Source: Bolinopsis microptera (lineage: Eukaryota; Ctenophora; Tentaculata; Lobata; Bolinopsidae). Taken from it: a stretch of 64,000 nucleotides of DNA. This document shows positions 37,401 to 64,000 of this stretch, piece by piece. Every line of letters begins with the position of its first letter. Position 1 is the stretch's first letter. The DNA is taken from the NCBI RefSeq assembly GCF_026151205.1, contig NC_087082.1, forward strand, positions 18,693,401-18,757,400, read 5' to 3'. Below the pieces are notes generated by a model. That model was not told the origin of the DNA. It was given only the letters and a program-made list of their open reading frames with translations, and searched no databases. The position numbers and the translations under genes were made by a program.

Positions 37401-40400
37401 ATGCTCAAGGCCTTATTCCCTTCGGTGAGCTTAATAATGCCCACCCAATGCTTGATAACACCAAATGTCTTGAGCTTTCAACTTATCTTAATGAGGCAAA
37501 TATAGATATTGCAATACTTAACGAAACTTGGTTTAAAAACTCCATAGCTGATAGCGAATTCCTGCACCCTGATAGATATAAGATATTTCGCTCTGACAGA
37601 TCTAAGAAAACTCATCCACCTGATCCCTCTAATCCGACCCGGTTTAGGAGAAATGGTGGCGGGGTCATGATTGCTGTGAGAGCAGACCTTCAATTATCTT
37701 CGAAAGAAATCCGACTTAAAGAGGGGGCTGAGATTCTTGCTGTGGAGTTTACAACATCAACGGGCATTAAATTTGTTATCTGTACATGTTATCGTGTTGG
37801 TACACTGGGCTTTGCAAATCATGAACAAATTCTTGGATCTCTGAAAACTCTTCTTCGGAGAAGAGGGCTAAGCAAAGTTTTCATCCTGGGAGATTTCAAC
37901 CTGACTGGAGTCTCCTGGTCTACCTTAGCCGGCTCCTGTCCTATTGAGCAGATTTTTGTTGAATCTTTTGTAGACCTTGGCCTTCGGCAATGTGTACTTA
38001 CACCCACCCATTGCAAAGGCAAAACACTGGACCTTTTGCTCACAAACTCTGAGTCTAATATCAGTGACCTAATGGTAGGTGAGCGAGATAGCGTCTGTAA
38101 GTCTGATCATTTTCCAATCAACTTTAAGATCAACATTAAGGTAAATAGGAAGAAGCCGGTTAAGCGTATGTGCTATAACTATAAAAACGTGAACTGGGAG
38201 AGGCTAAACCATGAACTCCGGCACACAGACTGGAATGCATTGCTTAATGGCACAGAACCTGAAATTGGGTGGAAAAAATTTAAGGAAAAACTTTTCAATA
38301 TCACTGACAAATTCATCAAGAAATGCTCAGTTAAGACAGATGGACAAGATCCATGGTTTGACTCAGAGTGCTATGATGCATGGCGCAAGAAAATAAGACT
38401 GCATAAAGATAGACATAAAAGCGATAGAGCCCAAATAGCGTTCTCCCTCGCCAGGAAAAACTTCAAAAATGTGGTTGCTCAAAAAATGCGAGAAACATTA
38501 AATGAATCAGATGATAGCGCTCTTGTAACAAAAAAATTCTGGTCATATGTAAAATCAAAAACAGCTAGTCAAAGAATTCCTGAGTTTGTAAGCTACAAAG
38601 GCATTGTCCGCAACTGCCCAGAGGACCAGGCCAACTTATTTAATGGCTTTTTCTTCGAGCAGTTCTCTGAAACATCATTATACGACATAGATATTGATTA
38701 TTCAAACGATTGGCGCTTTGATATTGCATTTGACCACCAAAGGGTCCGTAAAATCCTTTCCAACATTAACTCTAACAAAGCTTATGGGCCTGATGGTATT
38801 CATGGGAAACTTTTGAAAAACTGTGCTGTTGGGCTTGCATACCCATTATCACTATTATTTCATTCATGTTACAACATTGGGACATTACCTAGGGAGTGGA
38901 AACTGGGACACGTTGTACCCATATATAAAAAAGGTGATAAACATGAGGTTTCAAATTATAGGCCAATATCCCTTACATGCTTAATCACCAAAGTTCTTGA
39001 ACGCATAATAAAAGATGAGTTACTTGCACTTACTTACGGCATGATCAACGATAAACAACACGGTTTTCGAGCTGAAAGATCATGTGCAACTAATCTTGTA
39101 GGTCTATGTGACAGCCTAGCTCTCTCACTGAACGAAAATATGAGAACAGATGTAGTCTACTTTGATTTTGCCAAAGCGTTTGACTCGGTTAACCATGATC
39201 TTATATTATTTAAGCTAAAGAGCAAATTTGGTATTGATGGGAGGCTACTGAAATTCATCACTGATTATCTAAGAGACAGGCAACAACAGGTCTTGATAAG
39301 TGGCAAGTTTTCTTCTATGAGAAACGCCCAGTCTGGTGTACCACAAGGGTCAATTTTGGGACCGTTGTTGTTCATTATGTTCATTGATGATATATCAGTG
39401 GGGATTTCACCATGCACACAACTGTCACTGTATGCCGATGATACTAAAATTTGGCGTAAGATTGTTTCAGAGTCTGATATCCTGCGACTGCAGAAGGACA
39501 TTGATTATCTCCATGACTGGTCACTTTCTAATAAAATGAGATTTCATCCCGACAAATGTAAGGTCCTCACCGTCGCAGGAAGGATATCCGAAACAGTTTC
39601 CCTCCTTAGTGTCCTACCACTCTTTAACTTTGTATACTCCATGGGAAGAATCGCACTTGACTATGTTGATCATGAAAAGGATCTGGGTGTTTTTGTGACC
39701 AAGAATCTCGACTGGCAAGACCAGTGCTCTAAAGTCCTTTCAAAGGCCAACCAAAAGTTAGGCATGGCAAGGAGAAATTGCTATTTTGTTCAAGATGAAA
39801 ATCGTCGTAGAGTACTTTATCTCACTTTAATGAGAAGTCAATTTGAGCATTGCTCAGTTATATGGAGACCGGTCACAAAATCCCAGATAAGCAAGCTGGA
39901 GGGCCTCCAAAAGCGTGCTATTAAGTGGATTCTTCACGAGGAGTATATGAGTTATCCACCATCCACATACATTCAAAAATGCAGACAGCTTAAGATTATG
40001 CCCATAGAAGACCGCTTCGACTTTCTTGACCTTATTTTCTTCTTTAAAATTGTGAAGCAACATATACCTGTCACTTTACCCCCATATTTGCAACCATTTC
40101 AAGGCCACTCGAGGTTAAGAAATAGCCACATGGACCCCTTATGTTTTGTAAGCTCAATCTTACCACGAGCAAGCTCTAACGCTTTTGCTAAGAACTTTTA
40201 CTTTAGGACCCATTCCAAATGGAATCATATTCCTCTAGCTATACGTGAGATAGAGACTATTACTGAGTTCAAAAGCAAATTGACCTCCTACATGTGGGAT
40301 AAAATTCTGCCGGAGGACTTTGATTATGATCTAGATTATTCCTTCGAGACAGAGATGTGAGGCAGTCTACCTAAAGCTAACAATATGTTCATAGAACTTA

Positions 40401-43752: not shown

Positions 43753-43786
43753 ATGAGAGTTACATGGCTAACATCACTGTTATTTG
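43753..43786 (+). CDS. KIAA0319-like exon 1: signal peptide
   Basis: MRVTWLTSLLFG, continuing VIIPCLVDG in the next exon. The upstream ATG at 43748 gives only a two-codon frame (ATG ACA TGA), so 43753 is chosen. Donor GTAAGC. Confidence 0.7.
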
Positions 43787-46700
43787 GTAAGCAGTTATTG
43801 TAAAATAAACTTTATTTACTATTGAGCATGTCTTGGCTATTACAAATTCGGATTTGTCTAATTTCTGTGAATAATTTTCTGAATTTCTAGTATATAATAT
43901 CCAGGTTCTTCACGGATTTGTTTCAGTGATCATACCATGTTTGGTTGATGGTAGCAGCATCACTTGCACCAAGAGTGACACTGTCGATGGTGTGCCAACT
44001 GGCATTAATGTCACGGACGCAGAGGTAGTCCGCAAACTCTCATTTGAGGTAAGATTTATTGTTGTTAATAACAGTTCATTGTGGCACAGTGTCTTAACTG
44101 CAAGTGTACCTTTTGCAAGTGTACCATTTGGCTACTTTACTAAAAACTGATATAGGAAAATCTCACAAATTTTGAACACAAACTGACAAACTATTGTATT
44201 TAAATGAAAATATTGTAATCTGTATATCATCAATATTTCAGGCTTGCGTTGATCGTTGCTGTCAAAAGGACGGTTGCGAGGTAGCAGGACTACATAAGAA
44301 TGTCTGTGTATTAGCCAGTTGTACTACTCACCCATGCAAGAGGGATTTTAAAGCTGACCCCGAAGATAATAAGGCTAATTTCACGTTTCTCACCAAACAT
44401 GGTAGGTTGTTCATTTCTTGGAAACATAATATTGCTCATTGGAAATTGTGCTAAAAAGTGGTTTTGAACATTCTGAAACTTCAATCATGGTGTCTTTTTA
44501 TGAAAATTTAAAGTATACAACCTATACTTTAGGCTGCTGTTTGGATAAATATTGTCACTTTATATCTAAAAATTGTAAAATAGGTTCATGATATCAAAGA
44601 ATTGATTATTTCCAAATTTCACCTTATTTCAATTCAGTCCAAGAAGACAAGCCGAATTCAGCTGCAGCTGACACTGAAAAGAAGGATTCAGCAGATCCTA
44701 AAAAAGATGCAGAGGATACCAAAACACCAGACACTAAAAGTAGCACTAAAGTTGATTCAGAAGATTCTGACAAGACAACAGCAGATTCAGTAGACACTAG
44801 TGCAGTTACATTGGATTCAAATAATAAAGAGGGGGAGCAAGCTAAATCAGATGAAACGATACTAGTTCAGAAAGCAAGCAGTGAAACTTCTGAAAGGAAC
44901 GCAGTCAAGGAGAAGAGTGATACTGCAGAATCAGGAGAAACAAAAGACAAACAAACTACTGCAGAATCAGGAGAAACAAAAGACAAACAAACTACTGCAG
45001 CACCTGATTCTAAAAGCAAAAACACCCCTAGTAAACAGAAAACAAAAGCATCAGACACTAAAACTGTTGCACCCAAAGAAGAAGCCAAAGTAGAAGCTAT
45101 AGAAGAAGCTATAGAAGAAGCCAAAGATGATGCTAAAGATGATGCTAAAGATGATGCTAAAGATGACTCCAAAGATGATGCTAAGGATGCCTCCAAAGAT
45201 GATGCTAAAGATGATGCTAAAGATGACTCCAAAGATGACTCCAAAGATGAATCCAAAGATGACTCCAAAGATGATGCCAACAAACCAAACTGTGACCCTG
45301 ATTGCGATATAGCATCAGAGAAATGTGTTAAAGATAACAACGTTTGGAAGTGTGATTGCAAAGAAGGTACGTTAAATTTTCTGAACTTATATTTAGCAGG
45401 AGATTACAATTTAGCTTGCAATTATTTCTTATTCGTCATTATGATTATCTTGAGCGAAATTCACTTGTATTTGCTGTAAAAGAAGCGTCACTAACTTTTG
45501 TGATAGGTTACTGATAACAGTTGTTACATCTCTACTGATAAAAGTTGTTACATACTTGACTATAAAGTATAATTTCGCTTTTAATTAATATTTAAATTAT
45601 TTAGATTGTTTCTTGACGCAGGTTTTATAAAGACTAAGGATGATGGATGTGTTGCCAAGGTGATGTGTGAAGCTTCTACTAGTTGCCCTGGTGACCACAC
45701 GGCGTGTACTGTTGTCGACAATAAAATAGCGTGTGGCTGTCAAAACGGGTATGTTAATGTTATTCTACTCAGTCTGACTAATTTTGACGGCCCCAACGTT
45801 AATGTGGCTCTTGCTATATGTTGGTTCAGCCGAATTAATTATTATGTAATCAAGTTTATTTTTCTCTTTAAGTTAGTTGTCATCCGGCCAAACATTAAGC
45901 AACTTATATTGCAGTACCATTTATCAATTAGTATATCAAAATATGTCATTGTAATTTTGCATGGCTGAAATGTAACGCTTGATTTATATAGGATACAAGG
46001 ATACAAGGATACAAGGATACAAAAGTGATAATTATTTTATTGAGTTCAACGAGTTTATATATATAATAATTAATTAAATTTTCAAATTAAAAAAAAAAAA
46101 AATTGGGAATTTAAACTCTTGATATTCTTAATTCTTTATAATACTTCCTGGAAACGTACTGGAATTCTCTGAAGTTTTCTGGAACATTCATTAGCTTTCT
46201 GTAAGCTGTGCCAGTGGTTTTGGTTTTGTTGTAGTGCCTTGCGAGAAACACAAGATATGGGATTAGTTGGAATCTTAGGTTACAGTACAGTGTATATTTA
46301 TGCGTGGTAATTATGTGTAATTATGTGTAATTATGTGTAATTATGTGTGATATGCGTGGAATGTGGATTATATTATCCTGACACTCCCACTTCACTGCAA
46401 TGCTTTGTCTTATCAATACCCAGAATTGAATTGAAGTGTTAGTTTCGGGGGAGTAACACTCAAGGGTTTCAATCCTACATTTCACAATTTGCCATTGTTC
46501 AGACTGAATATCTAATTAATTAATTAACTAATTAATCTAATTAAACTCATCATTCCAATTACCACACCTAGACCAATAGACAACATACCACAAACCATTG
46601 TCTACAAACAGAATGTATATTCTCTCTTACCCTAACAACACTAACACTATGTCTTACCAGGTATAAGAAGGAGAAGGGAGTCTGTAAGGAGGTGACCTGT

Positions 46701-49700
46701 AAAGGTGTATCCTGTCCGAATCATGCCACGTGCGCCTTGTCGGAGAACACCGCGCACTGTTTCTGTGATAAGGACTATGTAGCACAGGGTATATTCTGCA
46801 GGACTGGTAAGTGATAAGGACTATGTAGCACAGGGTATATTCTGCAGGACTGGTAAGTGATAAGGACTATGTGGCACAGGGTATATTCTGCAGGACTGGT
46901 AAGTGATAAGGACTATGTGGCACAGGGTATATTCTGCAGGACTGGTAAGTGATAAGGACTATGTGGCACAGGGTATATTCTGCAGGACTGGTAAGTGATA
47001 AGGACTATGTAGCACAGGGTATATTCTGCAGGACTGGTAAGTGATAAGGACTATGTAGCACAGGGTATATTCTGCAGGACTGGTAAGTGATAAGGACTAT
47101 GTGGCACAGGGTATATTCTGCAGGACTAGTAAGTGATAAGGACTATGTGGCACAGGGCATATTCTGCAGGACTAGTAAGTGATAAGGACTATGTGGCACA
47201 GGGTATATTCTGCAGGACTGGTAAGTGATAAGGACTATGTAGCACAGGGTATATTCTGCAGGACTGGTAAGTGATAAGGACTATGTAGCACAGGGTATAT
47301 TCTGCAGGACTGGTAAGTGATAAGGACTATGTGGCACAGGGTATATTCTGTAGGACTGGTAAGTGATAAGGACTATGTGGCACAGGGTATATTCTGCAGG
47401 ACTGGTAAGTGATAAGGACTATGTGGCACAGGGTATATTCTGTAGGACTGGTAAGTGATAAGGACTATGTGGCACAGGGTATATTCTGTAGGACTGGTAA
47501 GTGATAAGGACTATGTGGCACAGGGTATATTCTGCAGGACTGGTAAGTGATAAGGACTATGTGGCACAGGGCATATTCTGCAGGACTGGTAAGTGATAAG
47601 GACTATGTGGCACAGGGTATATTCTGCAGGACTGGTAAGTGATAAGGACTATGTGGCACAGGGCATATTCTGCAGGACTGGTAAGTGATAAGGACTATGT
47701 GGCACAGGGTATATTCTGCAGGACTGGTAAGTGATAAGGACTATGTGGCACAGGGTATATTCTGCAGGACTGGTAAGTGATAAGGACTATGTGGCACAGG
47801 GCATATTCTGCAGGACTGGTAAGTGATAAGGACTATGTGGCACAGGGTATATTCTGCAGGACTGGTAAGTGATAAGGACTATGTGGCACAGGGCATATTC
47901 TGCAGGACTGGTAAGTGATAAGGACTATGTGGCACAGGGTATATTCTGCAGGACTGGTAAGTGATAAGGACTATGTGGCACAGGGTATATTCTGCAGGAC
48001 TGGTAAGTGATAAGGACTATGTGGCACAGGGTATATTCTGTAGGACTGGTAAGTGATAAGGACTATGTGGCACAGGGTATATTCTGTAGGACTGGTAAGT
48101 GATAAGGACTATGTGGCACAGGGTATATTCTGCAGGACTGGTAAGTGATAAGGACTATGTGGCACAGGGCATATTCTGCAGGACTGGTAAGTGATAAGGA
48201 CTATGTGGCACAGGGTATATTCTGCAGGACTGGTAAGTGATAAGGACTATGTGGCACAGGGCATATTCTGCAGGACTGGTAAGTGATAAGGACTATGTGG
48301 CACAGGGTATATTCTGCAGGACTGGTAAGTGATAAGGACTATGTAGCACAGGGTATATTCTGCAGGACTGGTAAGTGATAAGGACTATGTGGCACATGGT
48401 ATATTCTGCAGGACTGGTAAGTGATAAGGACTATGTGGCACAGGGTATATTCTGCAGGACTGGTAAGTGATAAGGACTATGTGGCACAGGGTATATTCTG
48501 CAGGACTGGTAAGTGATAAGGACTATGTGGCACAGGGCATATTCTGCAGGACTGGTAAGTGATAAGGACTATGTGGCACAGGGTATATTCTGCAGGACTG
48601 GTAAGTGATAAGGACTATGTGGCACAGGGCATATTCTGCAGGACTGGTAAGTGATAAGGACTATGTGGCACAGGGTATATTCTGCAGGACTGGTAAGTGA
48701 TAAGGACTATGTAGCACAGGGTATATTCTGCAGGACTGGTAAGTGATAAGGACTATGTGGCACAGGGTATATTCTGCAGGACTGGTAAGTGATAAGGACT
48801 ATGTGGCACAGGGTATATTCTGCAGGACTGGTAAGTGATAAGGACTATGTGGCACAGGGTATATTCTGTAGGACTGGTAAGTGATAAGGACTATGTGGCA
48901 CAGGGTATATTCTGCAGGACTGGTAAGTGATAAGGACTATGTGGCACAGGGTATATTCTGCAGGACTGGTAAGTGATAAGGACTATGTGGCACAGGGTAT
49001 ATTCTGCAGGACTGGTAAGTGATAAGGACTATGTGGCACAGGGTATATTCTGTAGGACTGGTAAGTGATAAGGACTATGTGGCACAGGGTATATTCTGTA
49101 GGACTGGTAAGTGATAAGGACTATGTAGCACAGGGTATATTCTGCAGGACTGGTAAGTGATAAGGACTATGTGGCACAGGGTATATTCTGCAGGACTGGT
49201 AAGTGATAAGGACTATGTGGCACAGGGTATATTCTGCAGGACTGGTAAGTGATAAGGACTATGTAGCACAGGGTATATTCTGTAGGGCTAGTAAGTGATA
49301 AGGACTATGTGGCACAGGGCATATTCTGCAGGACTGGTAAGTGATAAGGACTATGTGGCACAGGGTATATTCTGCAGGACTGGTAAGTGATAAGGACTAT
49401 GTGGCACAGGGTATATTCTGCAGGGCTAGTAAGTGATAAGGACTATGTGGCACAGGGTATATTCTGCAGGACTGGTAAGTGATAAGGACTATGTGGCACA
49501 GGGCATATTCTGCAGGACTGGTAAGTGATAAGGACTATGTGGCACAGGGTATATTCTGCAGGACTGGTAAGTGATAAGGACTATGTGGCACAGGGTATAT
49601 TCTGCAGGGCTAGTAAGTGATAAGGACTATGTGGCACAGGGTATATTCTGCAGGACTGGTAAGTGATAAGGACTATGTGGCACAGGGCATATTCTGCAGG

Positions 49701-52700
49701 ACTGGTAAGTGATAAGGACTATGTGGCACAGGGTATATTCTGCAGGACTGGTAAGTGATAAGGACTATGTGGCACAGGGTATATTCTGTAGGACTGGTAA
49801 GTGATAAGGACTATGTGGCACAGGGCATATTCTGCAGGACTGGTAAGTGATAAGGACTATGTAGCACAGGGTATATTCTGGAGGACTGGTAAGTGATAAG
49901 GACTATGTGGCACAGGGTATATTCTGCAGGACTAGTAAGTGATAAGGACTATGTGGCACAGGGTATATTCTGCAGGACTGGTAAGTGATAAGGACTATGT
50001 AGCACAGGGTATATTCTGGAGGACTGGTAAGTGATAAGGACTATGTGGCACAGGGTATATTCTGCAGGACTGGTAAGTGATAAGGACTATGTGGCACAGG
50101 GTATATTCTGCAGGACTGGTAAGTGATAAGGACTATGTGGCACAGGGTATATTCTGCAGGACTGGTAAGTGATAAGGACTATGTGGCACAGGGTATATTC
50201 TGCAGGACTGGTAAGTGATAAGGACTATGTAGCACAGGGCATATTCTGCAGGACTGGTAAGTGATAAGGACTATGTAGCACAGGGTATATTCTGCAGGAC
50301 TGGTAAGTGATAAGGACTATGTAGCACAGGGTATATTCTGTAGGACTGGTAACTGATAAGGACTATGTGGCACAGGGTATATTCTGCAGGACTGGTAAGT
50401 GATAAGGACTATGTGGCACAGGGTATATTCTGCAGGACTGGTAAGTGATAAGGACTATGTAGCACAGGGTATATTCTGCAGGGCTAGTAAGTGATAAGGA
50501 CTATGTAGCACAGTGTATATTCTGCAGGACTGGTAAGTGATAAGGACTATGTGGCACAGGGTATATTCTGCAGGACTGGTAAGTGATAAGGACTATGTGG
50601 CACAGGGTATATTCTGCAGGACTGGTAAGTGATAAGGACTATGTGGCACAGGGTATATTCTGCAGGACTGGTAAGTGATAAGGACTATGTAGCACAGGGT
50701 ATATTCTGCAGGACTGGTAAGTGATAAGGACTATGTAGCACAGTGTATATTCTGCAGGACTGGTAAGTGATAAGGACTATGTGGCACAGGGTATATTCTG
50801 CAGGACTGGTAAGTGATAAGGACTATGTGGCACAGGGTATATTCTGCAGGACTGGTAAGTGATAAGGACTATGTGGCACAGGGCATATTCTGCAGGACTG
50901 GTAAGTGATAAGGACTATGTGGCACAGGGTATATTCTGCAGGACTGGTAAGTGATAAGGACTATGTGGCACAGGGTATATTCTGCAGGACTGGTAAGTGA
51001 TAAGGACTATGTGGCACAGGGTATATTCTGCAGGACTGGTAAGTGATAAGGACTATGTAGCACAGGGTATATTCTGCAGGACTGGTAACTGATAAGGACT
51101 ATGTAGCACAGGGTATATTCTGCAGGACTGGTAAGTGATAAGGACTATGTAGCACAGGGTATATTCTGCAGGACTGGTAAGTGATAAGGACTATGTGGCA
51201 CAGGGTATATTCTGCAGGACTGGTAAGTGATAAAAGACTATGTGGCACAGGGTATATTCTGCAGGACTGGTAAGTGATAAGGACTATGTAGCACAGGGCA
51301 TATTCTGCAGGACTGGTAAGTGATAAGGACTATGTGGCACAGGGTATATTCTGCAGGACTGGTAAGTGATAAGGACTATGTGGCACAGGGTATATTCTGC
51401 AGGACTGGTAAGTGATAAGGACTATGTGGCACAGGGTATATTCTGCAGGACTGGTAAGTGATAAGGACTATGTGGCACAGGGCATATTCTGCAGGACTGG
51501 TAAGTGATAAGGACTATGTGGCACAGGGCATATTCTGCAGGACTGGTAAGTGATAAGGATTATGTGGCACAGGGTATATTCTGCAGGACTGGTAAGTGAT
51601 AAGGACTATGTGGCACAGGGTATATTCTGTAGGACTGGTAAGTGATAAGGACTATGTGGCACAGGGTATATTCTGCAGGACTGGTAAGTGATAAGGACTA
51701 TGTGGCACAGGGTATATTCTGTAGGACTGGTAAGTGATAAGGACTATGTGGCACAGGGTATATTCTGCAGGACTGGTAAGTGATAAGGACTATGTGGCAC
51801 AGGGTATATTCTGCAGGACTGGTAAGTGATAAGGACTATGTGGCACAGGGCATATTCTGCAGGACTGGTAAGTGATAAGGACTATGTGGCACAGGGTATA
51901 TTCTGCAGGACTGGTAAGTGATAAGGACTATGTGGCACAGGGCATATTCTGCAGGACTGGTAAGTGATAAGGACTATGTGGCACAGGGCATATTCTGCAG
52001 GACTGGTAAGTGATAAGGACTATGTGGCACAGGGTATATTCTGCAGGACTGGTAAGTGATAAGGACTATGTGGCACAGGGCATATTCTGCAGGACTGGTA
52101 AGTGATAAGGACTATGTGGCACAGGGCATATTCTGCAGGACTGGTAAGTGATAAGGACTATGTGGCACAGGGTATATTCTGTAGGACTGGTAAGTGATAA
52201 GGACTATGTGGCACAGGGCATATTCTGCAGGACTGGTAAGTGATAAGGACTATGTGGCACAGGGCATATTCTGCAGGACTGGTAAGTGCTACATCTGTTA
52301 TTTATAAAAAATGTTATAATCTCACAATCGTCTATTATTAAAATATTATGTATTAAAATGAGGTCAGGTTTAGTTCAATGAGTTGGGCGATAAATTGAGC
52401 TGGCCTTTTATTGTAAACTTACTCCCGTAGTTCTGTTCTAGAAGCATCACAGTAAACCCCCGATTTACCGTGGGGCGTGGGAACGGAAAGATATGATAAG
52501 GCCTGAAATCCATAGAATTAAAAGTGATATTTTTTATAGTCTAATGATCAAATACTTAGCAATTCAAAAGTAACAACTTTTCATGACATCTAGATTCTAG
52601 AATACATCCAATTATATCAGCTGAGAATAATTGGCATGGTATGTGAGATTGTTAACTTTATCTGCTTCCCTTATCACCTCGTAAGCAGATGACAGCGCTC

Positions 52701-55700
52701 GGTCTGATAAAACATTGTAGTGAGTAGATAATAGTGAAGGAATGGGGCCACGATCAGTCGTTGGCATGCGAACCCCGTCGTCAGCTGATACTATACTAAC
52801 AACTGTTCAGTAGGATCTAGAAAAGTTAGATCAGGAGGAAAAGAATTCCTGTTTTATATCTATATTTCTTACTTATTATATTTATTATTACTTTTATTAC
52901 TATCAGACCTAGACAGTGAATGTAGATAATATGTCCTCAGGATGACCCTGATGATGAAGATTTTCCAGGTACTGAATAATATGTTGATAACATAAAACGA
53001 GCTAATTTCAGACGTAAAAACATTGTCGAACAAATTTTCGGGAAAAAATCAAAACTGTCGGAAAAAAAGTTAAATTATTCGAAAAAAGTTGTTTAGTGAA
53101 TTAGAAGAAAAATTCGGGGAAAGGATTTATCCGTGCGGTAAATCGGGGTTTGCGGTAATTCGGGGCGCAGTTAATCAGGGTATTACTGCACTGTACATAT
53201 TAATCTACTGTATCTGTATCCTCTTACCTACTTTATATTGCCACACAGTTGTTGACTGCACTACGGAGCCTAAAAACGCGGGGTGTCCAACCAACGAACA
53301 GTGTAAACAGGTAATTTATATTTTATTCTCACATCACCATTTTATCAAATCGGTTTACAGTTTGCTGTATATTTTTAAAGCTGTATAATATTTTAAAAGT
53401 TGATCTCTAATAGAACCGCTGACCCAGGTGAGCAGCAAGAAGCAGTGTTTCTGCATTCCCGGCAAGCTGCGCGTTAAACCAACCGGTGACTGCACAGGGA
53501 ACGCGAGCGCAATAGTGCTGACCAGTGAGGACGTGACAGTGCAACTTCCTGCACAGTCCGCAACAATGTCCGTGTCTGTGGCTCCCGCGCACTCTAAGAA
53601 TGATAACTACTACGCCTACAAGTGGGAGCAACAGAAGAACCCGGCCGGAGTGAGTTTGGTTTTAGTTGGCTAGTAAACTGAGGGTACTGGAACTTGGCCG
53701 GGGTGAGTTTGGTTTTAGTTGGCTAGTAAACTGAGGGTACTGGAACTTGGCCGGGGTGAGTTTGGTTTTAGTTGGCTAGTAAACTGAGGGTACTGGAACT
53801 TGGCCGGGGTGAGTTTGGTTTTAGTTGGCTAGTAAACTGAGGGTACTGGAACTTGGTTAAGAAATTATTGTTAGGGTCGTCTAGATTAGTCGTAATTAGG
53901 TATAACTGCACTCAAGTTGTTCTGAAATATATCGGGTTTTAATTGATGGCTCCAGTTTAGTGTAATTTAGGGGTTGTTTAGAGTTCTGGATTGTTGGTTG
54001 AGATTGTGGGAGAAGCTTTTTCAGCTTTGGCCTCGAATCAACGCTGTTGTTTTCGTAAATTGCAGATTTGCAGATTTACGTGATTTACACGATTATCCAA
54101 TACTTGTCTTGCACGTTTTTCAAACCTTGCTGCTATATTTGCTAAACTTCACCCGATTGATTAACTAACTAATCAACTAATCGATGCGTAATCACCAGGG
54201 AGATTCATTAGTGGAAGGGTTGACCAAGTCTCGAGTTACCATAAGTAAGCTGGTCGCAGGAGAGTATGTGTTCTTAGTGACCGTGCTGGGGATACACAAC
54301 GAATATCACACCAAGGTACTTATTTACAACTACTAGATTAATTGATTTGAAAATAGCACAACAGAATTTGAGTAGATCCATGGCCTTATGGGCTGGAATT
54401 CCCAACCAACTGGAGAGTTGAGGGTTGAATTTTTCTCAAGTTGACATAGATTCGGGGTCTTCTTAAGTGGTATAAATTTAAACTTTTATTTTATAAACTC
54501 AATTTGAGTCTTGTACATGTAACATGCAGTACATACAGTACTGAGTACACGCTTATAACTGGTAGTATTTTCTGTACATAGTTCTTTCCTGTTGACTCAA
54601 GCCTCTGACGTAATATTTTGTGCTCAATTGTTGGTGGCTCCATCTCTCCATGTGAATATGTTACATATTGTATAATAGTGTATATATTTTATACACTGAA
54701 CAATGTGTCTACTTTACATGTACACTCTGAACAGTAACAATGCGTATACACGACAATATCATTTTATACCTGAAGAAGCTGTGTACAGTACTGGTATTGA
54801 ATAACAACTAGACTATAATAAGTTAAATTGGAGTTATTAAAAAGATTATCTCATAAAAAATGTTAGAATTGACATGAATTATTGAGTAACATATTTTATT
54901 TTAAAATCCCACAGTCTATTATAATGGCAGATACGTGTAAATTCGCCTATAACGTTTATTTAAAGTTTAAAGTCATTAAATAATTATTAGTGTTAGACAA
55001 CATTGAAGTGGACGCGTTTCAATCTACACTCGCGTTTATATAACAGCTGCAGATCATCGAACATGGTGAATAATGACTCATGAATATTTAATATGCACAT
55101 ATTAGTCATTAAATTAATGTAATAATATGTAAAGTATTGTATTTGGTACAGTGTTATAATCACGACCGTCCAAGTATCAATACCATCATTCAGTTAAAAG
55201 ATTCTGATCTATCTTTAAAACTAAGTTAATTTATTAAGTATAAATAACTTACACATTGTCTGATAACGAACATTATATAAGTTCAGTAAACAGGTGTGGG
55301 ACAATAATTCCTATCATCAGAACACACTTTATAATTTGTAATACTTGCAACACTACTATATATATAACAAATAATTTGAAGAGGTTCTCTGAAGATGATA
55401 TTTTATTCGAAGAGCCTAAATTGTGTATGATTAGCTTCTCCAAACAAATCTAAAGACACACTTTATAATAGTAACTGCAACTAAGGGATGTTCCTAACTC
55501 TTCTGTTACCCTATCTAAATATCACTTCATATAGTCCTCCTCCTCCTCTGAACACCTGTTATCTCACAGTCAGTACGTGTTTTACTGTGTTTCAGTGGGT
55601 AGCAGTCTCAGCAGCTGTTGTTTAGCGTAGTTCTTGTGTTTAAGGGGGCCGGGGGGGGGGGGGGGGGTCTTCATCAAAATTCTCTCGAAATTGACTTTTT

Positions 55701-58700
55701 AGTTGTTTCTGATAGAGGGGAGTGATATCTATCAGCTGTTTTTGATCCCATGGAAAAATATTGTTCCTAGCCGAAATTATTGCCGGTCAAAGGTCAGCGC
55801 TTATGTGTAATTGTATTGCGCGAGCGATTTTCAATCGCGCGCCCTGAAAATCGAGTCTAAAAATCTATCTTCTCCTACATTTTTTGAGCAATCACCCTGA
55901 AACTTTCAGGATATGTTCTAAGGACCATTTAGAAGAGATTGTCGCGCCAGAATTTTGAGATAGGCCTTAAAACATTTTTTATTCGATTTTGAAAATCTTG
56001 GACCTCGTTTTTTGACGATTTTTTCAGGTCCAAGATTTTCAAAATCGATTAAAAAATGTTTTAAGGCCTATCTCAAAATTCTGGCCCGACAATCTCTTCT
56101 AAATGGTCCTTAAAACACATCCTGAAAGTTTTAGGGTGATTGCTCATAAACTGTAGGAGAGGATAGATTTTTAGACTCGATTTTCAGGGCGCGCGATTGA
56201 AAATCGCTTGCGCAATACAATTACACATAAGCGCTGACCTTTGACCGGCAATAATTTCGGCTAGGAACAATATTTTTCCATGGGATCAAAAACAGCTGAT
56301 AGATATCACTCCCCTCTATCAGAAACAACTATAAAGTCAATTTCGAGAGAATTTTGATGAAGACCCCCCCCCCCCCGGCCCCCTTAATATTCATTTAGCT
56401 GGCTGAATCTGAGTATTAACCAGGAAAAAAACAGGTACATTTCTTTTGTGGTTATTAAATAAACTAATAAAGAAAGAAATGTTTGAGGAGACTGTGAAAA
56501 TGTGTGTTTTCCTTTCGTTATACCATGTATACATTCATCAGTTGAAATGTTAAGCCTAGTTTTAGATAGGTGTAAATTCCTCAGACACATGTTTATTATA
56601 TGTGTGGGTACTACCAGCATTAGTACTAGTAACTAGTAACTAGTAACTAGTAACTAGTAACTAGTAACTAGTAACTAGTAACTAGTTACTAGTTACTAGT
56701 TACTAATTACTAGTTACTACTGGGACTATTAAATTAACAGATAGGCTGATACATTTTGGAGAAGACGTGTCTGTTGACAGTTTAATATTTTTCCTATGAG
56801 TAAGATTCGTAGTATATTGATATTATGAACAATATCTATATTGTATATAATCAAGATTTGTACATTTTGTAATAAATGATAAATCCCAGTGCAGTAGTCA
56901 ATACAAATGTATTCCAAATGTAAATCCTTGTAGTACGTTTGGAACATTGTGCATATTCTTGATATATCTCAAGAGTTAGGGTGATTCCTAGATATGTGAC
57001 GTTGCAACTCTACTACTCAGGATTCAGTTTACCGCGAACTAAAGCTTACATTTTCAGGTTGTGAAATTAAAGGTGTTGCCTACAGTACCGCAAAATAAAG
57101 CTCACATTTTCAGGTTGTGAAATTAAAGGTGTTACCTACAGTACCGCAAACTAAAGCTCACATTTTCAGGTTGTGAAATTAAAGGTGTTACCTACAGTAC
57201 CGCAAACTAAAGCTCACATTTTCAGGTTGTGAAATTAAAGGTGTTACCTACAGTACCGCAAACTAAAGCTCACATTTTCAGGTTGTGAAATTAAAGGTGT
57301 TACCTACTGCAGTACCGCAAACTAAAGCTCACATTTTCAGGTTGTGAAATTAAAGGTGTTACCTACAGTAACGGAGAACAAAGCACCCGTTGCCGTTATT
57401 AAACCTGCCGGCAAAGTATCTTTCAAACTTCCTGCCGAGTTCTCCCTCAACGGAATTGATAGTCACGATGATGATAAGGTACCAGTTATTGCACTGTTTT
57501 ACTTTAAAATACAATTTTCTATAAAGTTCTACGATGATTTTAAAGGTTTTATTCTAACCTTGTTATTTGCATTGGAAAGTTGGAAATGCTAACTTTGAAG
57601 TCGTGCTGAAGTGTACATAATATGTATATTATTTTAACAATAATTGTATTGTAACTCTTGTGACTACGAGTCACTAAACCTCGCGTCATTTTCATGTGTA
57701 CATGACTACCATCAATAATAGACATATAATGTATAATTCAATGTGTACCAGTTACAATTATTGTTAAAATAAATCTTAAGATTCTAAACTCATTTATCTT
57801 GAGGCGACTTGTTTATTTTAAACGTTAGCTCTATTATTACACATGCGATAGCATCATATTAATACTGATAGTTGTATAATAATAGTGAATAATGGTACAT
57901 GATGTCTGCCTCATCAGTCAATGGTCGAAATAACACGTACTTACATAATACTATAATATTACAATACCAATGAGGGTTATTTTACACTTTGGTATAGATA
58001 CGCCCATATCTGTTTATAAAGAGAATTTTATAACAAGTATCTTCCAATTATAGCTTTATAGGGGTAAATATAAGTATTGCTAGGGTTAGACACAAATAAA
58101 AGGCAGAGTTAAACATTAACTAGCATAATCTCAATCTAGCAGAATATTTGTTTCCATAACATGCTAAAGTAAGATGTAAGTTTTCAGTCCGGAAACTGGT
58201 AAAACCGGTTCAAGTCTCAATTAGGGCTAAATTATGGGACATAAGGTCATTTTTATAATTATAACCAATCAGCTCTTAAATAAAAGCATTAAACATCTCA
58301 CTGACCCCACCCCTCCCCAACTCTGATATTAAATGAAATCCTCACAATAAACCCATTGCAGATAGTTTCCTACGCATGGACCATAGAGGCTAGACCAGTA
58401 GCAAGCAGTGAGAATTTCGTCAAGCTCATCGGTAATTAATATATTTCTCATAATCTTTCATCATGCTTTCGGAAATGTATTATTCACAACAATTGTACTG
58501 TTTGCGCAATTTTGCAGGCTACATTATACTGACTGAGGTATTACCTCTGTGGTCAGTTTTACAATCATCTGATGAGGAAAATGTACATAATTGTTATTTA
58601 TTAAATTGGTTTTTGTTTTTTGCGTTATATGATCACACTATAAAATTCCTATTTGTTATCGTGAACTCTATTTCGGCTATCAATAATGCTGAGAACGTAT

Positions 58701-60134
58701 AGTGCGTTATAAGTAATATAATTTACTTGTTTATTTATAATTTGATATGAAGTTACGCCGCTTACATATGAGTTCTCCCGTAAGTTAAGGCTGGGGGTTC
58801 ACCCTGAATTTTTTGTGAAACTTGGTTTCGAGATAGCAGTTGACCAACAAACTAGGACCGGTGACCGAACTTTTGAGGGGGTCCCGGACCCCAACCGCCA
58901 AACGGTGCCCGCGGGGCAGCCACGCCCATATTTGGTCCAAATTAGGCCCAATTTAGCCAAATACCCTGAACATGCCCAAAACCCAGATTTTAGGTGCTCT
59001 ACTTGTAGCTAGTGGTCCCCTGAACTCGTATATGAATTTTCATCAAGATTGGACAAAAAATGACTGAGTTATGAGCCAAAAACCATATGACCATATTTGG
59101 GCATACGCACCAAATTTGATCGATTTTGGCCCATAAATTGGTCAAATATCAATATTTTTGAATGAAACCAACTTTATATGGAAGATAAGCCTATACTACA
59201 GATTCTCTATGATTATCAGCTCAATATCTACCTAACTGTGGATTCTGTGTTCAATTAATTGCAAAAAATGAACAAAATCGCCCATATCTCAGTTCGCGAT
59301 ATTTGCGAAACTGATTTCGTTCAAAACAATAGAACTCAATAGGGTTTCAATATTTTTTCATGAAATTTTCAGAATCAACGTAGAATCGCATTTCGACCTT
59401 AAGTTTTAATATGGAATTTTGAGTTAGGCCTTTAAAAAAATTTGGCGGCCAAATTCTGAAAAATGCCCGGCAAATTTCAGAATTTGGCCGCCAAATTTTT
59501 TTAAAGGCCTAACTCAAAATTCCATATTAAAACTTAAGGTCGAAATGCGATTCTACGTTGATTCTGAAAATTTCATGAAAAAATATTGAAACCCTATTGA
59601 GTTCTATTGTTTTGAGCGAAGTCAGTTTTGCAAATATCGCGAACTGAGATATGGGCGATTTTGTTCATTTTTTGCAACTATTTGAACACAGAATCCACAG
59701 TTAGGTAGATATTGAGCTGATAATCATAGATAATCTGTAGTATAGGGTTATCTTCCATATAAAGTTGGTTTCATTCAAAAATATTGATATTTGACCAATT
59801 TATGGGCCAAAATCGATCAAATTTGGTGCGTATGCCCAAATATGGTCATATGGTTTTTGGCGCATAACTCAGTCATTTTTTGTCCAATCTTGATGAAAAT
59901 TCATATACGAGTTCAGGGGACCACTAGCTACAAGTAGAGCACCTAAAATCTGGGTTTTGGGCATGTTCAGGGTATTTGGCTAAATTGGGCCTAATTTGGA
60001 TCAAATATGGGCGTGGCTGCCCCGCAGGCACCGTTTGGCGGTTGGGGTCCGGGACCCCCTCAAAAGTTCGGTCACCGGTCCTAGTTTGTTGGTCAACTGC
60101 TATCTCGAAACTAAGTTTCACAAAAAAATCAGGG

Positions 60135-60221
<87 letters not shown>

Positions 60222-61400
60222 AAATATTATTTCGACGAAATAAGGTCTACTTGTTATCTTAGTCGGAAGGCGCGATAATATATTCTGTTAGATACAATGC
60301 GTCACATGCTGCGTGTTCTGCGCGCGCATTTCTTATTTATTTCATATTAACTTGTCATGTTGCGTTGATCTGATCACACCGGTACTTATTGTTCATCGCG
60401 GCATGCGAATTGGTTTTACTCTACGGTTGAGAAACTCGGACACTGGAAAAGGCCTAACAGAAATATTCTGGACGGGACATAAAAATTTAATCAGGCATCC
60501 TGAAATGCTAGCACGTAATCTCGTCTTGTGGGAACATGCGAATGATAGAGCTAGAAGAGGCTGTGGAAGCAACCGTCTTCGGACGATGCAAAACTTACGG
60601 ATTTGGCAAATAGTCACTAGAGCGTCAGGATGTTAGAGTAGCCACTAAAATAGTCACTAGAGCGTCAGGATGTTAGAGTAGTCACTAGAGCAGTAACTTG
60701 AGGTATATTAACAGTTAAAACGTAACTTTTCAGGTGAAACTACGGATACGTTACACGTAAAAGTCTCACAAGGAGAAGGGGAATTCAAGTTCAAACTCGA
60801 GGTAAGAGTTAAAGGGGGGAGGGGGGAGGGGGTTCATCCTGATTTTTAGGTAAGAGTTAACAAGGGTTAACCGATATAAAACTAAATATATTATTTCTAC
60901 AGTCGCCATTTGAATTATAGCCCCACCACTTCCTGAACCTAAACTTAACTCCTGCGTTACTAATAGTAGTTACTATGGTTACTAATAGCTAAAATAAACA
61001 CAGGTGAAAGATAAATCTGGTTTGACTGGCTCGGCCTCTAAATCAGTGCTCATTTTGGCTGAGGACGATTTCCCTCCCAGGTAAAACTACAAACCTAGCA
61101 CTGTGCCAGTGGCACTGACACTTCACTTTAAGAATATTCTATCTACATTTTTATGTCAAGTTGCTTGTAAGAAAAGTATTACATATTTTACAACTACTGC
61201 CATTATAATATGTAACATGCATATTAATTCCGTCAATGCATATCAACATTGTCAATGCCACGTACTTTTATCCGTACTTTCTTATCTTGATACTGTTTTA
61301 CTTTCAGTGCTAAAGTTTCCTCTGCTCTGGTTCTTACTCTACCTAAGAATTCCGCTGTTCTGTACGGCAACGGCAGCAAAGATGACCACGAAATAACAAA
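43753..61400 (+). CDS. KIAA0319/KIAA0319L-like PKD-domain protein, 14 exons seen, 3' incomplete
   Basis: An extracellular receptor-like protein: signal peptide, MANSC-like seven-cysteine domain, charged repeat linker, EGF-like modules, then PKD domains. Exons: 43753-43786, 43927-44048, 44242-44401, 44638-45366, 45622-45748, 46661-46806, 53249-53310, 53428-53649, 54199-54315, 57341-57478, 58362-58431, 60734-60801, 61004-61080, 61308-61400. Phases agree throughout, giving about 721 residues so far. PKD signatures match the family: APVAVIKP with SLNGIDSHDDDK, then FPPSAKV with LTLPKNSAVLYGNGSKDDHE. Family members act in cell adhesion and trafficking; vertebrate relatives lack the EGF-like modules seen here. 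Later PKDs and the membrane helix lie beyond the window. Three introns or exon edges carry splice-junction minisatellites. Confidence 0.8.
43927..44401 (+). CDS. KIAA0319-like exons 2-3: MANSC-like domain
   Basis: Exons 43927-44048 and 44242-44401. Cysteines at IPCLVD, ITCTKS, then ACVDRCCQKDGCEVAG, KNVCVLASC and HPCKRD. The CC followed by a spaced C and CxxxxC pattern matches the N-terminal MANSC/MANEC domain that opens KIAA0319 proteins. Confidence 0.75.
44638..45366 (+). CDS. KIAA0319-like exon 4: charged, repetitive linker and EGF-like start
   Basis: A 729-bp phase 1-1 exon. About 215 residues are Asp/Lys/Ser/Thr-rich and surely disordered, with a twofold AESGETKDKQTT repeat and a KDDA/KDDS repeat (45115-45290, 12-bp period). 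It ends with a cysteine cluster NCDPDCDIASEKC, then WKCDCKEG, starting an EGF-like module. The replaced position in vertebrate relatives is also low-complexity. Confidence 0.8.
45622..45748 (+). CDS. KIAA0319-like exon 5: EGF-like module
   Basis: DGCVAKVMC, TSCPGDHTACTVV and IACGCQNG. Phase 1 in, phase 2 out at AACGG|GTATGT. Confidence 0.75.
45990..46350. repeat. Short tandem repeats in the exon 5-6 intron
   Basis: Four GGATACAAG-type units near 45992-46022, and four GTAATTATGTG-type units at 46308-46349. Otherwise this 912-bp intron shows nothing. Confidence 0.8.
46661..46806 (+). CDS. KIAA0319-like exon 6: EGF-like module, seed of the 46-bp array
   Basis: GVCKEVTCKGVSC, HATCALS and HCFCDKDYVAQGIFCRT. 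The last 40 nt plus the GTAAGT donor are the founding copy of the 5.5-kb minisatellite. Phase 1 exit (ACT G|) joins G|TT GTT at 53249 to give Val-Val. Which of 120 identical donors is used is not determined by sequence alone; only the first keeps the frame cleanly. Confidence 0.75.
46767..52287 (+). repeat. 46-bp minisatellite, 120 copies, each with a splice donor
   Basis: Unit: GATAAGGACTATGTGGCACA, then GGGTATATTCTGCAGGACTG, then GTAAGT. Length 5,521 bp, exactly 120 units plus one inserted A near 51231. Copy 1 is the end of exon 6 and its intron start. Common variants: GTA/GTG, GGT/GGC, TGC/TGT, and AC/GC with TG/TA just before GTAAGT. Almost every unit keeps GTAAGT; two have GTAACT. No spacers, so it is not a CRISPR array. 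Confidence 0.97.
52288..53248 (+). other. Unique intron sequence after the 46-bp array
   Basis: AT-rich, no repeats of note and no extra exon recognised. It supplies the single acceptor (CCACACAG, ending 53248) for the preceding array of donors. Confidence 0.6.
53249..53310 (+). CDS. KIAA0319-like exon 7: cysteine-rich
   Basis: VVDCTTEPKNAGCPTNEQCK, first half of an EGF-like or C-rich module. Acceptor CCACACAG. Phase 0 out. Confidence 0.7.
53428..53649 (+). CDS. KIAA0319-like exon 8: EGF-like end and start of PKD 1
   Basis: KKQCFCIPG and GDCTGN close the module. Then VTVQLPAQSATMSVSVAP and YYAYKWEQQKNPAG give the first PKD domain with its W. Donor GGA|GTGAGT, the seed of the 53-bp minisatellite. 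Confidence 0.78.
53643..53855 (+). repeat. 53-bp minisatellite, 4 copies, splice-donor spanning
   Basis: Units start at 53643, 53696, 53749 and 53802. Each has GGCCGG, a GTGAGTTTGG donor and GGGTACTGGAACTT. The first copy is the end of exon 8. Confidence 0.93.
54199..54315 (+). CDS. KIAA0319-like exon 9: PKD 1 second half
   Basis: VEGLTKSRVTISKLVAGEYV, then FLVTVLG and NEYHTK: the S-x-L-x-x-G-x-Y-x-F PKD strand pattern. Phase 0-0, 39 codons. Confidence 0.78.
55640..56387. mobile_element. Foldback element 1 with TTAA ends and G/C homopolymers
   Basis: A nearly perfect inverted repeat with arms of about 360 bp around a centre near 56010. Bounded by TTAA at 55640-55643 and 56384-56387. The termini are GGGGGCCG(17 G in all) and C(13)GGCCCCC. 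TTAA target duplication suggests a piggyBac-type non-autonomous element (inference). In the intron between exons 9 and 10. Confidence 0.8.
56619..56722. repeat. TAGTAAC heptamer repeat with inverted half
   Basis: About nine TAGTAAC units, then about five TAGTTAC units, so the two halves pair as a hairpin. Confidence 0.9.
57030..57372 (+). repeat. 56-bp minisatellite, 6 copies, splice-acceptor spanning
   Basis: Units begin at 57030, 57086, 57142, 57198, 57254 and about 57314. Each holds CACATTTTCAG|GTTGTGAAA, an acceptor and the first 28 nt of exon 10. Only the last copy continues into exon 10. Confidence 0.93.
57341..57478 (+). CDS. KIAA0319-like exon 10: PKD 2 start
   Basis: VVKLKVLP ends PKD 1; KAPVAVIKPAGKVSFKLPAE then SLNGIDSHDDDK begins PKD 2. 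Five upstream decoy acceptors are identical in their last 10 nt. Confidence 0.8.
58362..58431 (+). CDS. KIAA0319-like exon 11: PKD 2 middle
   Basis: IVSYAWTIEARPVASSENFV, then KLIG. The YAW tryptophan is the conserved PKD strand. Phase 0 in, 1 out. Confidence 0.78.
58795..60137. mobile_element. Foldback element 2, 1.3 kb, with poly(C) right end
   Basis: Long inverted repeat with arms of about 665 bp around a centre near 59467, for example GACCGGTGACCGAACTTTTG at 58856 matched in complement near 60065. The left end has TTAA followed by GGCTGGGGG. On the right the corresponding C run has expanded to 83 nt and no TTAA follows. Mirror ORFs of 65 codons occur on both arms and mean nothing. Confidence 0.8.
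60138..60220 (+). repeat. Poly(C) tract, 83 nt
   Basis: Uninterrupted C at the terminus of foldback element 2. Could be partly an assembly or sequencing artefact; it could also form i-motif or G-quadruplex structure. Confidence 0.95.
60390..60636 (+). pseudogene. Possible remnant of a LINE RT C-terminus
   Basis: Frame includes FWTGHKNLIRHPEMLARNLV, then LWEHANDRARRGC, loosely like the GH-x-x-R and L-W-E-grrrrGRP end region of LINE proteins. Weak and short; may be chance. It lies between foldback element 2 and exon 12. Confidence 0.3.
60614..60695. repeat. Tandem duplication of ~50 bp
   Basis: CACTAGAGCGTCAGGATGTT followed by AGAGTAG occurs twice in succession. Confidence 0.85.
60734..61080 (+). 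CDS. KIAA0319-like exons 12-13: PKD 2 end
   Basis: Exons 60734-60801 (ETTDTLHVKVSQGEGEFKFK, then LE) and 61004-61080 (VKDKSGLTGSASKSVLILAE, then DDFPP). The F-x-F-x-L-x-V-x-D-x-x-G pattern is the last strands of a PKD domain. Confidence 0.8.
61308..61400 (+). CDS. KIAA0319-like exon 14: PKD 3 start
   Basis: SAKVSSALVLTLPKNSAVLY, then GNGSKDDHEITK. The LTLP-x-N-S and G-N-x-S-x-DDH pattern is a hallmark of KIAA0319 PKD domains. Exits in phase 2 at AA|GTAAGT. The next exon is not in the window. Confidence 0.8.
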
Positions 61401-61430: not shown

Positions 61431-63906
61431 GGAACCACTGAACAACACCTGAACACCACTGAACAACACCTGAACAACACCTGAACAACACCTGAACAAC
61501 ACCTGAACAACACCTGAACAACACCTGAACACCACCTGAACACCACCTGAACAACACTGAACACCACCTGAACACCACCTGAACACCACTGAACAACACC
61601 TGAACACCACTGAACACCACCTGAACACCACCTGAACAACACCTGAACACCACTGAACAACACCTGAACACCACTGAACACCACCTGAACAACACCTGAA
61701 CACCACCTGAACACCACTGAACAACACCTGAACACCACTGAACACCACCTGAACAACACCTGAACAACACCTGAACACCACTGAACAACACCTGAACAAC
61801 ACCTGAACACCACCTGAACAACACTGAACAACACCTGAACAACACCTGAACACCACTGAACAACACCTGAACACCACTGAACACCACCTGAACAACACCT
61901 GAACACCACCTGAACAACACCTGAACACCACCTGAACACCACTGAACAACACCTGAACACCACTGAACACCACCTGAACAACACCTGAACACCACTGAAC
62001 ACCACCTGAACAACACCTGAACACCACCTGAACAACACCTGAACACCACCTGAACACCACCTGAACACCACCTGAACAACACTGAACACCACCTGAACAA
62101 CACCTGAACACCACCTGAACAACACCTGAACACCACTGAACAACACCTGAACAACACCTGAACAACACCTGAACAACACCTGAACAACACCTGAACAACA
62201 CTGAACACCACCTGAACAACACCTGAACAACACATGAACAACACCTGAACAACACCTGAACAACACCTGAACACCACCTGAACAACACCTGAACAACACA
62301 TGAACACCACCTGAACACCACCTGAACACCACTGAACAACACCTGAACAACACCTGAACAACACATGAACACCACCTGAACAACACCTGAACACCACCTG
62401 AACAACACCTGAACAACACATGAACACCACCTGAACAACACCTGAACAACACATGAACACCACCTGAACAACACCTGAACACCACCTGAACAACACCTGA
62501 ACAACACATGAACACCACCTGAACAACACCTGAACACCACCTGAACAACACCTGAACACCACCTGAACACCACCTGAACACCACCTGAACAACACTGAAC
62601 ACCACCTGAACAACACCTGAACACCACCTGAACAACACCTGAACACCACCTGAACACCACCTGAACAACACTGAACACCACCTGAACAACACCTGAACAC
62701 CACCTGAACAACACCTGAACAACACATGAACACCACCTGAACAACACCTGAACACCACCTGAACAACACCTGAACAACACATGAACACCACCTGAACAAC
62801 ACCTGAACACCACCTGAACAACACCTGAACAACACATGAACACCACCTGAACAACACCTGAACACCACCTGAACAACACCTGAACACCACCTGAACACCA
62901 CCTGAACACCACCTGAACAACACTGAACACCACCTGAACAACACCTGAACACCACCTGAACAACACCTGAACACCACCTGAACACCACCTGAACAACACA
63001 TGAACACCACCTGAACAACACCTGAACACCACCTGAACAACACCTGAACACCACCTGAACACCACCTGAACACCACCTGAACAACACTGAACACCACCTG
63101 AACAACACCTGAACACCACCTGAACAACACTGAACACCACCTGAACAACACTGAACACCACCTGAACAACACCTGAACACCACCTGAACAACACCTGAAC
63201 AACACATGAACACCACCTGAACAACACCTGAACACCACCTGAACAACACCTGAACACCACCTGAACAACACTGAACAACACCTGAACACCACTGTACACC
63301 ACTGAACAACACCTGAACACCACCTGAACACCACCTGAACACCACCTGAACACCACCTGAACAACACCTGAACACCACCTGAACACCACCTGAACACCAC
63401 CTGAACAACACCTGAACAACACATGAACACCACCTGAACACCACCTGAACAACACCTGAACACCACCTGAACACCACCTGAACACCACCTGAACACCACC
63501 TGAACAACACCTGAACAACACCTGAACACCACCTGAACACCACCTGAACAACACCTGAACACCACCTGAACACCACCTGAACAACACCTGAACACCACCT
63601 GAACACCACCTGAACACCACCTGAACACCACTGAACAACACCTGAACAACACCTGAACAACACCTGAACACCACTGAACAACACCTGAACACCACCTGAA
63701 CACCACCTGAACAACACTGAACACCACCTGAACAACACCTGAACACCACTGAACAACACCTGAACAACACCTGAACAACACCTGAACACCACTGAACACC
63801 ACTGAACAACACCTGAACAACACCTGAACAACACCTGAACAACACCTGAACACCACCTGAACAACACCTGAACAACACCTGAACAACACCTGAACAACAC
63901 CTGAAC
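61431..63906. repeat. 11-bp satellite, about 2.5 kb
   Basis: Units CTGAACAACAC and CTGAACACCAC, with 10-bp (TGAACAACAC) and ATGAACAC variants; over 220 units. It starts 30 bp after exon 14. The three long minus-strand frames across it (841-891 codons) arise because the unit has no stop in that strand and 11 is not a multiple of 3; they are not genes. Confidence 0.97.
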
Positions 63907-64000
63907 ACCTCCTTTTCAACTTACTACCCATATTTCCAAACCATAATGCAATGATTTTGTAATAGAATACCCTTTATGCTTTTATGGCCTCAGAATCAAG

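Follow-up and report, generated by a model that had tools for sequence, protein, structure and literature searches.

A 120-copy minisatellite of splice donors in a KIAA0319-like gene of the ctenophore Bolinopsis microptera

How is one 5' splice site chosen when many equal ones stand in a row? The choice among equals is an old question, usually approached with engineered sites, two or a few at a time. A natural version of it is found in the ctenophore Bolinopsis microptera, in a stretch of 64,000 nucleotides (nt) of contig NC_087082.1 (C11:18693401-18757400 of the genome searched here, which comprises 264,652,675 bases in 232 contigs). This whole stretch is referred to as the window, and positions without a prefix are counted from its first letter. 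One glutamate receptor encoded in this genome comes closest to the ML032222a iGluR structure (4yki, 407 bits), from the ctenophore Mnemiopsis leidyi; for a second receptor, no match of that sort stood among the best 60 listed. Within it, the donor of the sixth coding exon of a predicted KIAA0319-like gene is repeated 120 times by a minisatellite with a 46-bp unit, while a nearby duplicate of the gene has the same junction in a single copy. A reading made from the sequence alone had singled out this array as a natural test of donor choice and proposed that it might tune splicing. We consider it probable that the array is instead a minisatellite of the kind called mirages in amphioxus, in which the donor nearest the exon would be used and copy number would be effectively neutral.

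The array and its host gene

Tandem Repeats Finder (TRF) placed the array at 46765..52288 on the forward strand, with a period of 46 bp, 120.1 copies, 97% matches and a score of 10465. Cut in register from 46766 to 52286, it falls into 120 units, 119 of them 46 bp long and one 47 bp, and each unit crosses the splice site with 41 nt of exon end and the intronic GTAAG. AG/GT splice signals are repeated along the whole array: the GT is kept at 120 of 120 donors, positions +1 to +6 read GTAAGT in 118 of them and GTAACT in the other two, and over positions -3 to +6 the donor is CTGGTAAGT in 111 units, CTAGTAAGT in seven and CTGGTAACT in two. Sites with at least eight of nine matches to CAG/GTAAGT (slashes mark splice boundaries) number 111 within these 5.5 kb, compared with four on the same strand and ten on the opposite strand in the remaining 58.5 kb of the window.

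The host gene was modeled with 14 predicted coding exons at 43753..61400 on the forward strand, all phases being consistent. A donor stands directly after exon 14, so the gene probably continues beyond it. Exon 6 (46661..46806, 146 nt) ends in GGACTG/GTAAGT, its last 41 nt being the exonic part of unit 1. If this first donor joins TTGTTGACTG, intron 6 would span 46807..53248 and exon 7 would follow at 53249..53310; intron 6 would then measure 6.4 kb, compared with 1,117 bp in the duplicate, and it is flanked by introns of 912 nt (intron 5) and 117 nt (intron 7). Acceptors picked by eye for exon 8 (AATAG) and exon 10 (CTACAG) gave wrong phases and were rejected in favor of CCCAG/GTGAGC and TTTTCAG/GTTGTG. 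In Pfam, the model protein scores 74.8 bits against K319L-like_PKD (E 5.7e-21; cut-off 27); its match to KIAA0319_N is marginal, at 26.5 bits (E 5.5e-6), just below a cut-off of 27. On these domain matches the name KIAA0319-like holds. Translation beyond donor 1 continues as ...CRTGK and then immediately meets two stops; with this read-through and a unit length of 3n+1, a later donor would bring a stop. On all of these points, namely a unit made of exon end and donor, donors that are nearly all alike, the gene family and the stop beyond donor 1, the sequence-only reading was borne out. Downstream of the model, a further minisatellite of 11 bp (CTGAACAACAC) begins in both duplicates 38 bp into the intron that follows exon 14, with 228 copies in the window (61438-63907) and 331 in the duplicate (L006 5600-9182).

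How might such an array arise? At both boundaries of the 46-bp unit stands the 3-bp repeat GTG, once in the exon (...TCT-GTG-ATAAGG) and again in the intron (GGTAA-GTG-CTAC). Since GTG is common to both flanks of the unit, a tandem duplication bounded by this microhomology would be the simplest origin. Having fallen by chance across the junction of exon 6 and intron 6, the duplication would then have grown to 120 units through unequal exchange or slippage. The units appear to have been homogenized recently, because their mean pairwise difference is 2.6% per site and multi-unit words recur (for example ADDABABA), a pattern as expected of recent turnover. A growth gradient was sought along the 120 units and no clear one was seen. 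The commonest unit variants sit on third codon positions, which might suggest selection on the units, though few positions vary.

The copy number of 120 rests on one assembly, and the real array could conceivably be far smaller, its length having been inflated by assembly or gap closing. Tandem arrays are error-prone in wtdbg and gap-closed assemblies. According to the available text of its description, the published assembly of B. microptera was made from PacBio wtdbg contigs with TGS-GapCloser and pilon polishing, and haplotigs were purged (PMC10232365), which would leave room for such an inflation. However, the array comprises 17 distinct unit sequences in irregular order, and its longest repeated multi-unit word is eight units. 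Moreover, this kind of array does not depend on the count, as seen at exon 8 of the two duplicates with 4 and 28.5 copies (described below). An artefact of this sort is improbable.

Each unit also contains a candidate acceptor motif, which reads TTCTGCAG in 104 of the 120 units, TTCTGTAG in 14 and TTCTGGAG in two. With TTCTGCAG in so many units, cryptic exons of 5 nt or recursive splicing within the array (TTCTGCAG/GACTG/GTAAGT) might be imagined. By our reasoning, however, the pyrimidine stretch is very short, 5 nt would be too small for ordinary exon definition, and the frame would shift, and we give this explanation next to no credence.

The duplicate gene and the choice of donor

From 30702 to 63909, the window is part of a segmental duplication whose partner lies on the same strand 312 kb away, at about C11:19.039-19.068 Mb. 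Homology between the two extends from 30.7 kb in the window to about 1.6 kb beyond its right end. On that side the edge is clear, as the homology ends inside contig C11 and a further 8 to 9 kb were compared; the left edge is less sure, the partner having been followed 2.1 kb beyond it. A stray haplotype in place of a gene duplication is disfavored by the end of the homology within C11, by a synonymous divergence (dS) of 0.106 and by the purging of haplotigs in the published assembly.

In the duplicate, the exon-6 junction is present in a single copy (C11:19052626-19052792; ...GGACCGGTAAGTGCTAC; ...TTCTGCAGGACCGGTAAGTGCTACATTTG), and this is one of three junctions at which the two genes differ in this manner. 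A second array, with a unit of 53 bp, lies across the 5' splice site of exon 8 (array 53643..53856, exon 53428-53649, forward strand; donor GGA/GTGAGT) and has 4.0 copies in the window gene and 28.5 in the duplicate. A third, with a unit of 56 bp, lies across the 3' splice site of exon 10 (array 57030..57370, exon 57341-57478, forward strand; CATTTTCAG/GTTGTG) and has 6.0 copies in the window gene and 2.2 in the duplicate. Like the exon-6 array, both have units with exon and intron sequence. Copy numbers at the junctions of exons 6, 8 and 10 are 120/4/6 in one gene and 1/28.5/2.2 in the other, an instability of length between gene duplicates such as mirages display. The donors of the exon-8 array are weaker, being GTGAGT and in the duplicate also GTGAGC, and read-through beyond the first of them also meets a stop. 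The six acceptors of the exon-10 array are identical in CATTTTCAG/GTTGTG, but the frame is kept by the last only, and each of the five earlier ones runs into a stop. Along exons 1-14 there are four intronic TRF arrays with a period of at least 30 bp (starting at 46765, 53643, 57030 and 60608), and three of them cross a splice junction, a tally that is post hoc and comes from one gene.

The pair differs in other repeats and insertions as well. Insertions present in one duplicate only were found at 37380-40740, 55644-56383 and 58793-60221 of the window and at L006 2457-3817; by eye, the first resembles a reverse-transcriptase element and the next two resemble long inverted repeats. Elsewhere in the window, at 5961-13904, there is a 439-bp tandem array of 17.7 copies, whose consensus looks coding by eye and might represent repeated exons.

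Does the protein persist across the arrays? Over 757 aligned codons of the two duplicates, dS is 0.106 and nonsynonymous divergence (dN) is 0.0126, which gives a dN/dS of 0.12 overall. In exons 7-14, downstream of the exon-6 array (281 codons), there are 20 synonymous differences and 0 nonsynonymous ones, so that the protein is retained across the arrays. Predominant use of later donors or earlier acceptors would leave exons 7-14 or 10-14 unread in the window copy. Synonymous and nonsynonymous differences upstream number 7 and 3 in exons 1-3, 13 and 16 in exon 4 (dN/dS 0.29), and 6 and 2 in exons 5-6, so that the upstream exons are less tightly constrained than exons 7-14. Exon 4 holds a coding repeat rich in Lys and Asp (KDDAKDDSKDD; window 45073-45280, L005 4692-4887), which differs between the duplicates in length and make-up.

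The one-copy junction of the duplicate, together with the strong protein constraint on the pair, makes the array look dispensable, and this speaks against the tuned splicing function proposed from the sequence. The other two junction arrays of the gene, moreover, changed in other directions. A specific form of tuning would be a leaky dosage switch, in which splicing from donors 2-120 would append the K-stop-stop tail to some transcripts, which would then be degraded or yield a truncated secreted protein, with array length setting the full-length output relative to the single-copy duplicate. The 119 additional donors, nearly all equal to donor 1, would suit such a switch, as would the stop after CRTGK on read-through and the array-free gene copy nearby. 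However, copy number is not conserved between the duplicates, a minigene with equal donors used the upstream one exclusively (PMC9225289), and the mirages of amphioxus are said, in the parts of the papers available, not to disturb splicing (PMC3087553, PMC3902484). The switch is in our view unlikely.

The array might also serve as a platform for U1, where many U1 small nuclear ribonucleoproteins on intron 6 would strengthen the definition of exon 6, block premature cleavage and polyadenylation in the long intron, or titrate U1. A search for U1 genes gave 10 matches over the cut-off, and three copies within the two loci read carry ATACTTACCTG; full pairing with U1 over positions +1 to +6 is thus possible at the 118 GTAAGT sites. 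These U1 genes keep ACTTAC, and in this respect the value of the locus as a natural test of donor choice is upheld. A platform is nevertheless at odds with the duplicate, which lacks the array, and with the other two arrays of the gene: the donors at exon 8 are weaker and what is repeated at exon 10 is an acceptor, so that the three arrays are not united by U1 binding. Titration of U1 by one gene would in addition be quantitatively unlikely, and we regard the platform as very improbable.

The reading that we prefer is that of a neutral mirage in which donor 1 is used. Introns 5 and 6 are long, and exon 6 would therefore be recognized by exon definition. Donor 1, being closest to the exon's own acceptor, would pair with it across the exon and be used, while the 119 later and nearly equal donors would be bound transiently at most and removed with the intron. 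The 3' splice site array at exon 10 would be the mirror image, with the last acceptor, which adjoins the exon, being the one used. Errors, whether later donors or earlier acceptors, would end as truncated products or in nonsense-mediated decay via in-frame stops, and as long as donor 1 wins, copy number would drift and be effectively neutral. The single copy of the duplicate would be the older state. An experiment close to a two-copy version of the 46-bp array has been described: in an exon-definition minigene whose two CAG/guaagu donors were equal and lay 52 nt apart, the upstream one was used exclusively in transfected cells with all strong-site constructs, as reported in the accessible text (Carranza et al., PMC9225289).

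Several points weigh against this reading. In older in-vitro work, Eperon and co-workers reportedly found that the intron-proximal of two strong donors is preferred, which would predict the use of donor 120. In human data on near-equal donor pairs, the upstream site is favored in 60% of events only, and short introns favor the site nearest across the intron, again according to the accessible text (PMC9225289). For B. microptera, we infer the use of donor 1 from the sequence, and exon definition is deduced from intron length. The single copy is taken as older from a comparison of the two duplicates. The test for selection likewise compares these two, and some of the constraint could be older than the array itself. 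The count of 120, from an assembly made with wtdbg on PacBio reads, may be off. The exon-8 array may behave differently from that of exon 6, as its context is mixed, with an intron 7 of only 117 nt.

The locus offers a natural test set in which 120 near-identical donors 46 nt apart can be set against a one-donor copy, 4 donors against about 28, and a 3' splice site in 6 copies against 2, with an unchanged protein retained downstream.

Junction arrays elsewhere in the genome

Are such arrays found at other genes of B. microptera? Twelve arrays on contig C1 were examined, all chosen by donor motif (nine from the triple-spaced GTAAGT matches listed and three from the AGGTAAGT matches listed). Six of the 12 cross a splice junction next to which coding evidence was found, a fraction that belongs to this motif-chosen sample and is not a genome rate. 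One is found at a Sushi exon (C1 428.5-430.9 kb, about 44 copies by length), two at dynein-like exons (C1 858 kb, AAA_8, E 1.7e-5; C1 885 kb, AAA_9, E 3.2e-4), and one at a 3' splice site of a CDK-like gene (C1 217 kb; Pkinase, E 0.0014 with two exons joined). These array-bearing exons are short, and their Pfam scores lie below the family cut-offs; in the Sushi gene, the exon that follows does exceed its cut-off. The other two form a paralogous pair (C1:36573-37725 and C1:761372-762172) with 32-bp arrays whose lengths correspond to about 37 and 26 donors. The exon of this pair has no Pfam match and is supported by its conserved open frame, with two synonymous differences only. The motif by which the pair was found lies on the strand opposite the gene; the gene's own donors are CAG/GTACTT in the copies seen, with CAG/GTACTT at the exon and CAG/GTAATT at the far end. 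The array at C1 914k seems to start within an intron and was classed as non-spanning; its neighboring exon had no convincing Pfam match. No coding evidence was found alongside the arrays at C1 304k, 377k, 569k, 1.291M and 3.114M.

Two of these genes have further repeats. In the CDK-like gene (L013 795-1086, C1:217.5 kb), the intron is nearly all 41-bp tandem array, and one unit seems to equal a whole tiny intron with its acceptor and a few exon bases. The dynein-like exon at C1:885 kb (L020 260-586) has an in-frame internal duplication of 171 bp (1.9 copies, 100% match) just upstream of the donor array.

A general enrichment of arrays at splice sites was shown neither by genome-wide motif counts nor by 55 kinase exon ends, a sample of low power. 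Triple-spaced GTAAGT matches numbered 8586+9073, compared with 1701+1456 for the backward control, but other hexamers gave 1781+1574 and 5870+6513. Likewise, AGGTAAGT gave 672+819 compared with 12+0, but AGTGATGA and AGTAGTGA gave 41+312 and 645+896. These counts were rejected as evidence of enrichment because they are made per repeat unit, so that a few large arrays can dominate. The 55 Pkinase exon ends were hand-picked from 40 regions, and none was crossed by a TRF array with a period of at least 20 bp; an array lay near one of them, and inspection by eye puts its start about 8 nt into the intron. The ends were taken from the 136 matches listed (127 of 769 candidates scored), with the end of a match standing in for the exon end, and the sample omitted, for example, the C5:14.3-Mb cluster and some truncated matches on C2, C3, C5 and C6. 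Arrays covered 392 of the 21450 bases flanking these ends.

A farther-reaching view would have junction arrays occur often enough in this ctenophore to be a standing feature of its gene architecture. Dozens to 120 near-perfect donors would be tolerated because the choice of the exon-adjacent site by its spliceosome is near-absolute. The small leak to downstream donors, and with it the output of one duplicate relative to the other, would be set by array length as a heritable and fast-mutating dial. We give this view a small chance.

Comparison with known systems

The sequence-only reading had held that no system of this kind was described, which does not stand in view of amphioxus and of human IFI6. 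In amphioxus, tandem repeats that straddle an exon-intron boundary are termed mirages, a name credited to the Adh paper of Canestro et al. (2002, as cited in PMC3087553 and PMC3902484). In the available text of these papers, mirages are described for Adh3, the globin genes BflGb6 and BflGb9, TnC and PGBD5, at 5' and 3' splice sites, and apparently leave regular splicing undisturbed (PMC3087553, PMC3902484). Somatic instability was reported for the Adh3 mirage (PMC3087553). The scale is different: BflGb6 has haplotypes with 6 and 3 units in the text available, while the ctenophore array has 120 near-identical donors. B. microptera also belongs to another phylum, and it has three arrays in one gene and an array-free duplicate nearby.

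In humans, a minisatellite with multiple splice donors in IFI6 (6-16/G1P3) was reportedly described by Turri et al. in 1995. Its unit is 12 bp long and keeps the frame. The available text of a later paper adds that two downstream minisatellite units of IFI6 serve as donors and yield isoforms (PMC4526556). The array of B. microptera is similar in that minisatellite units supply splice donors. In contrast, its unit is 46 bp, that is 3n+1, and with a read-through of CRTGK and two stops a later donor gives a stop instead of a kept frame.

Human segmental duplications contain internal tandem repeats at exon-intron boundaries, with units of 30 bp and four copies on average, which according to the text available can change splicing and form introns (PMC2812944). 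They share with the present case boundary minisatellites that vary between recent paralogs, but here the array is 46 bp x 120 and the downstream protein is unchanged. Intron gain through duplication of an AG/GT proto-splice site (Rogers, cited in PMC3087553) is similar in that splice signals are copied; it differs in that the intron is present without an array in the duplicate gene.

A search of the open-licence literature gave no paper that by its title deals with minisatellites or tandem repeats at splice sites in ctenophores. The kind of array is thus known, and the present case contributes the phylum, the scale, a gene with arrays at three junctions and a duplicate with a single copy. It extends mirages beyond the animals for which the literature searched describes them, which were amphioxus, with human counterparts.

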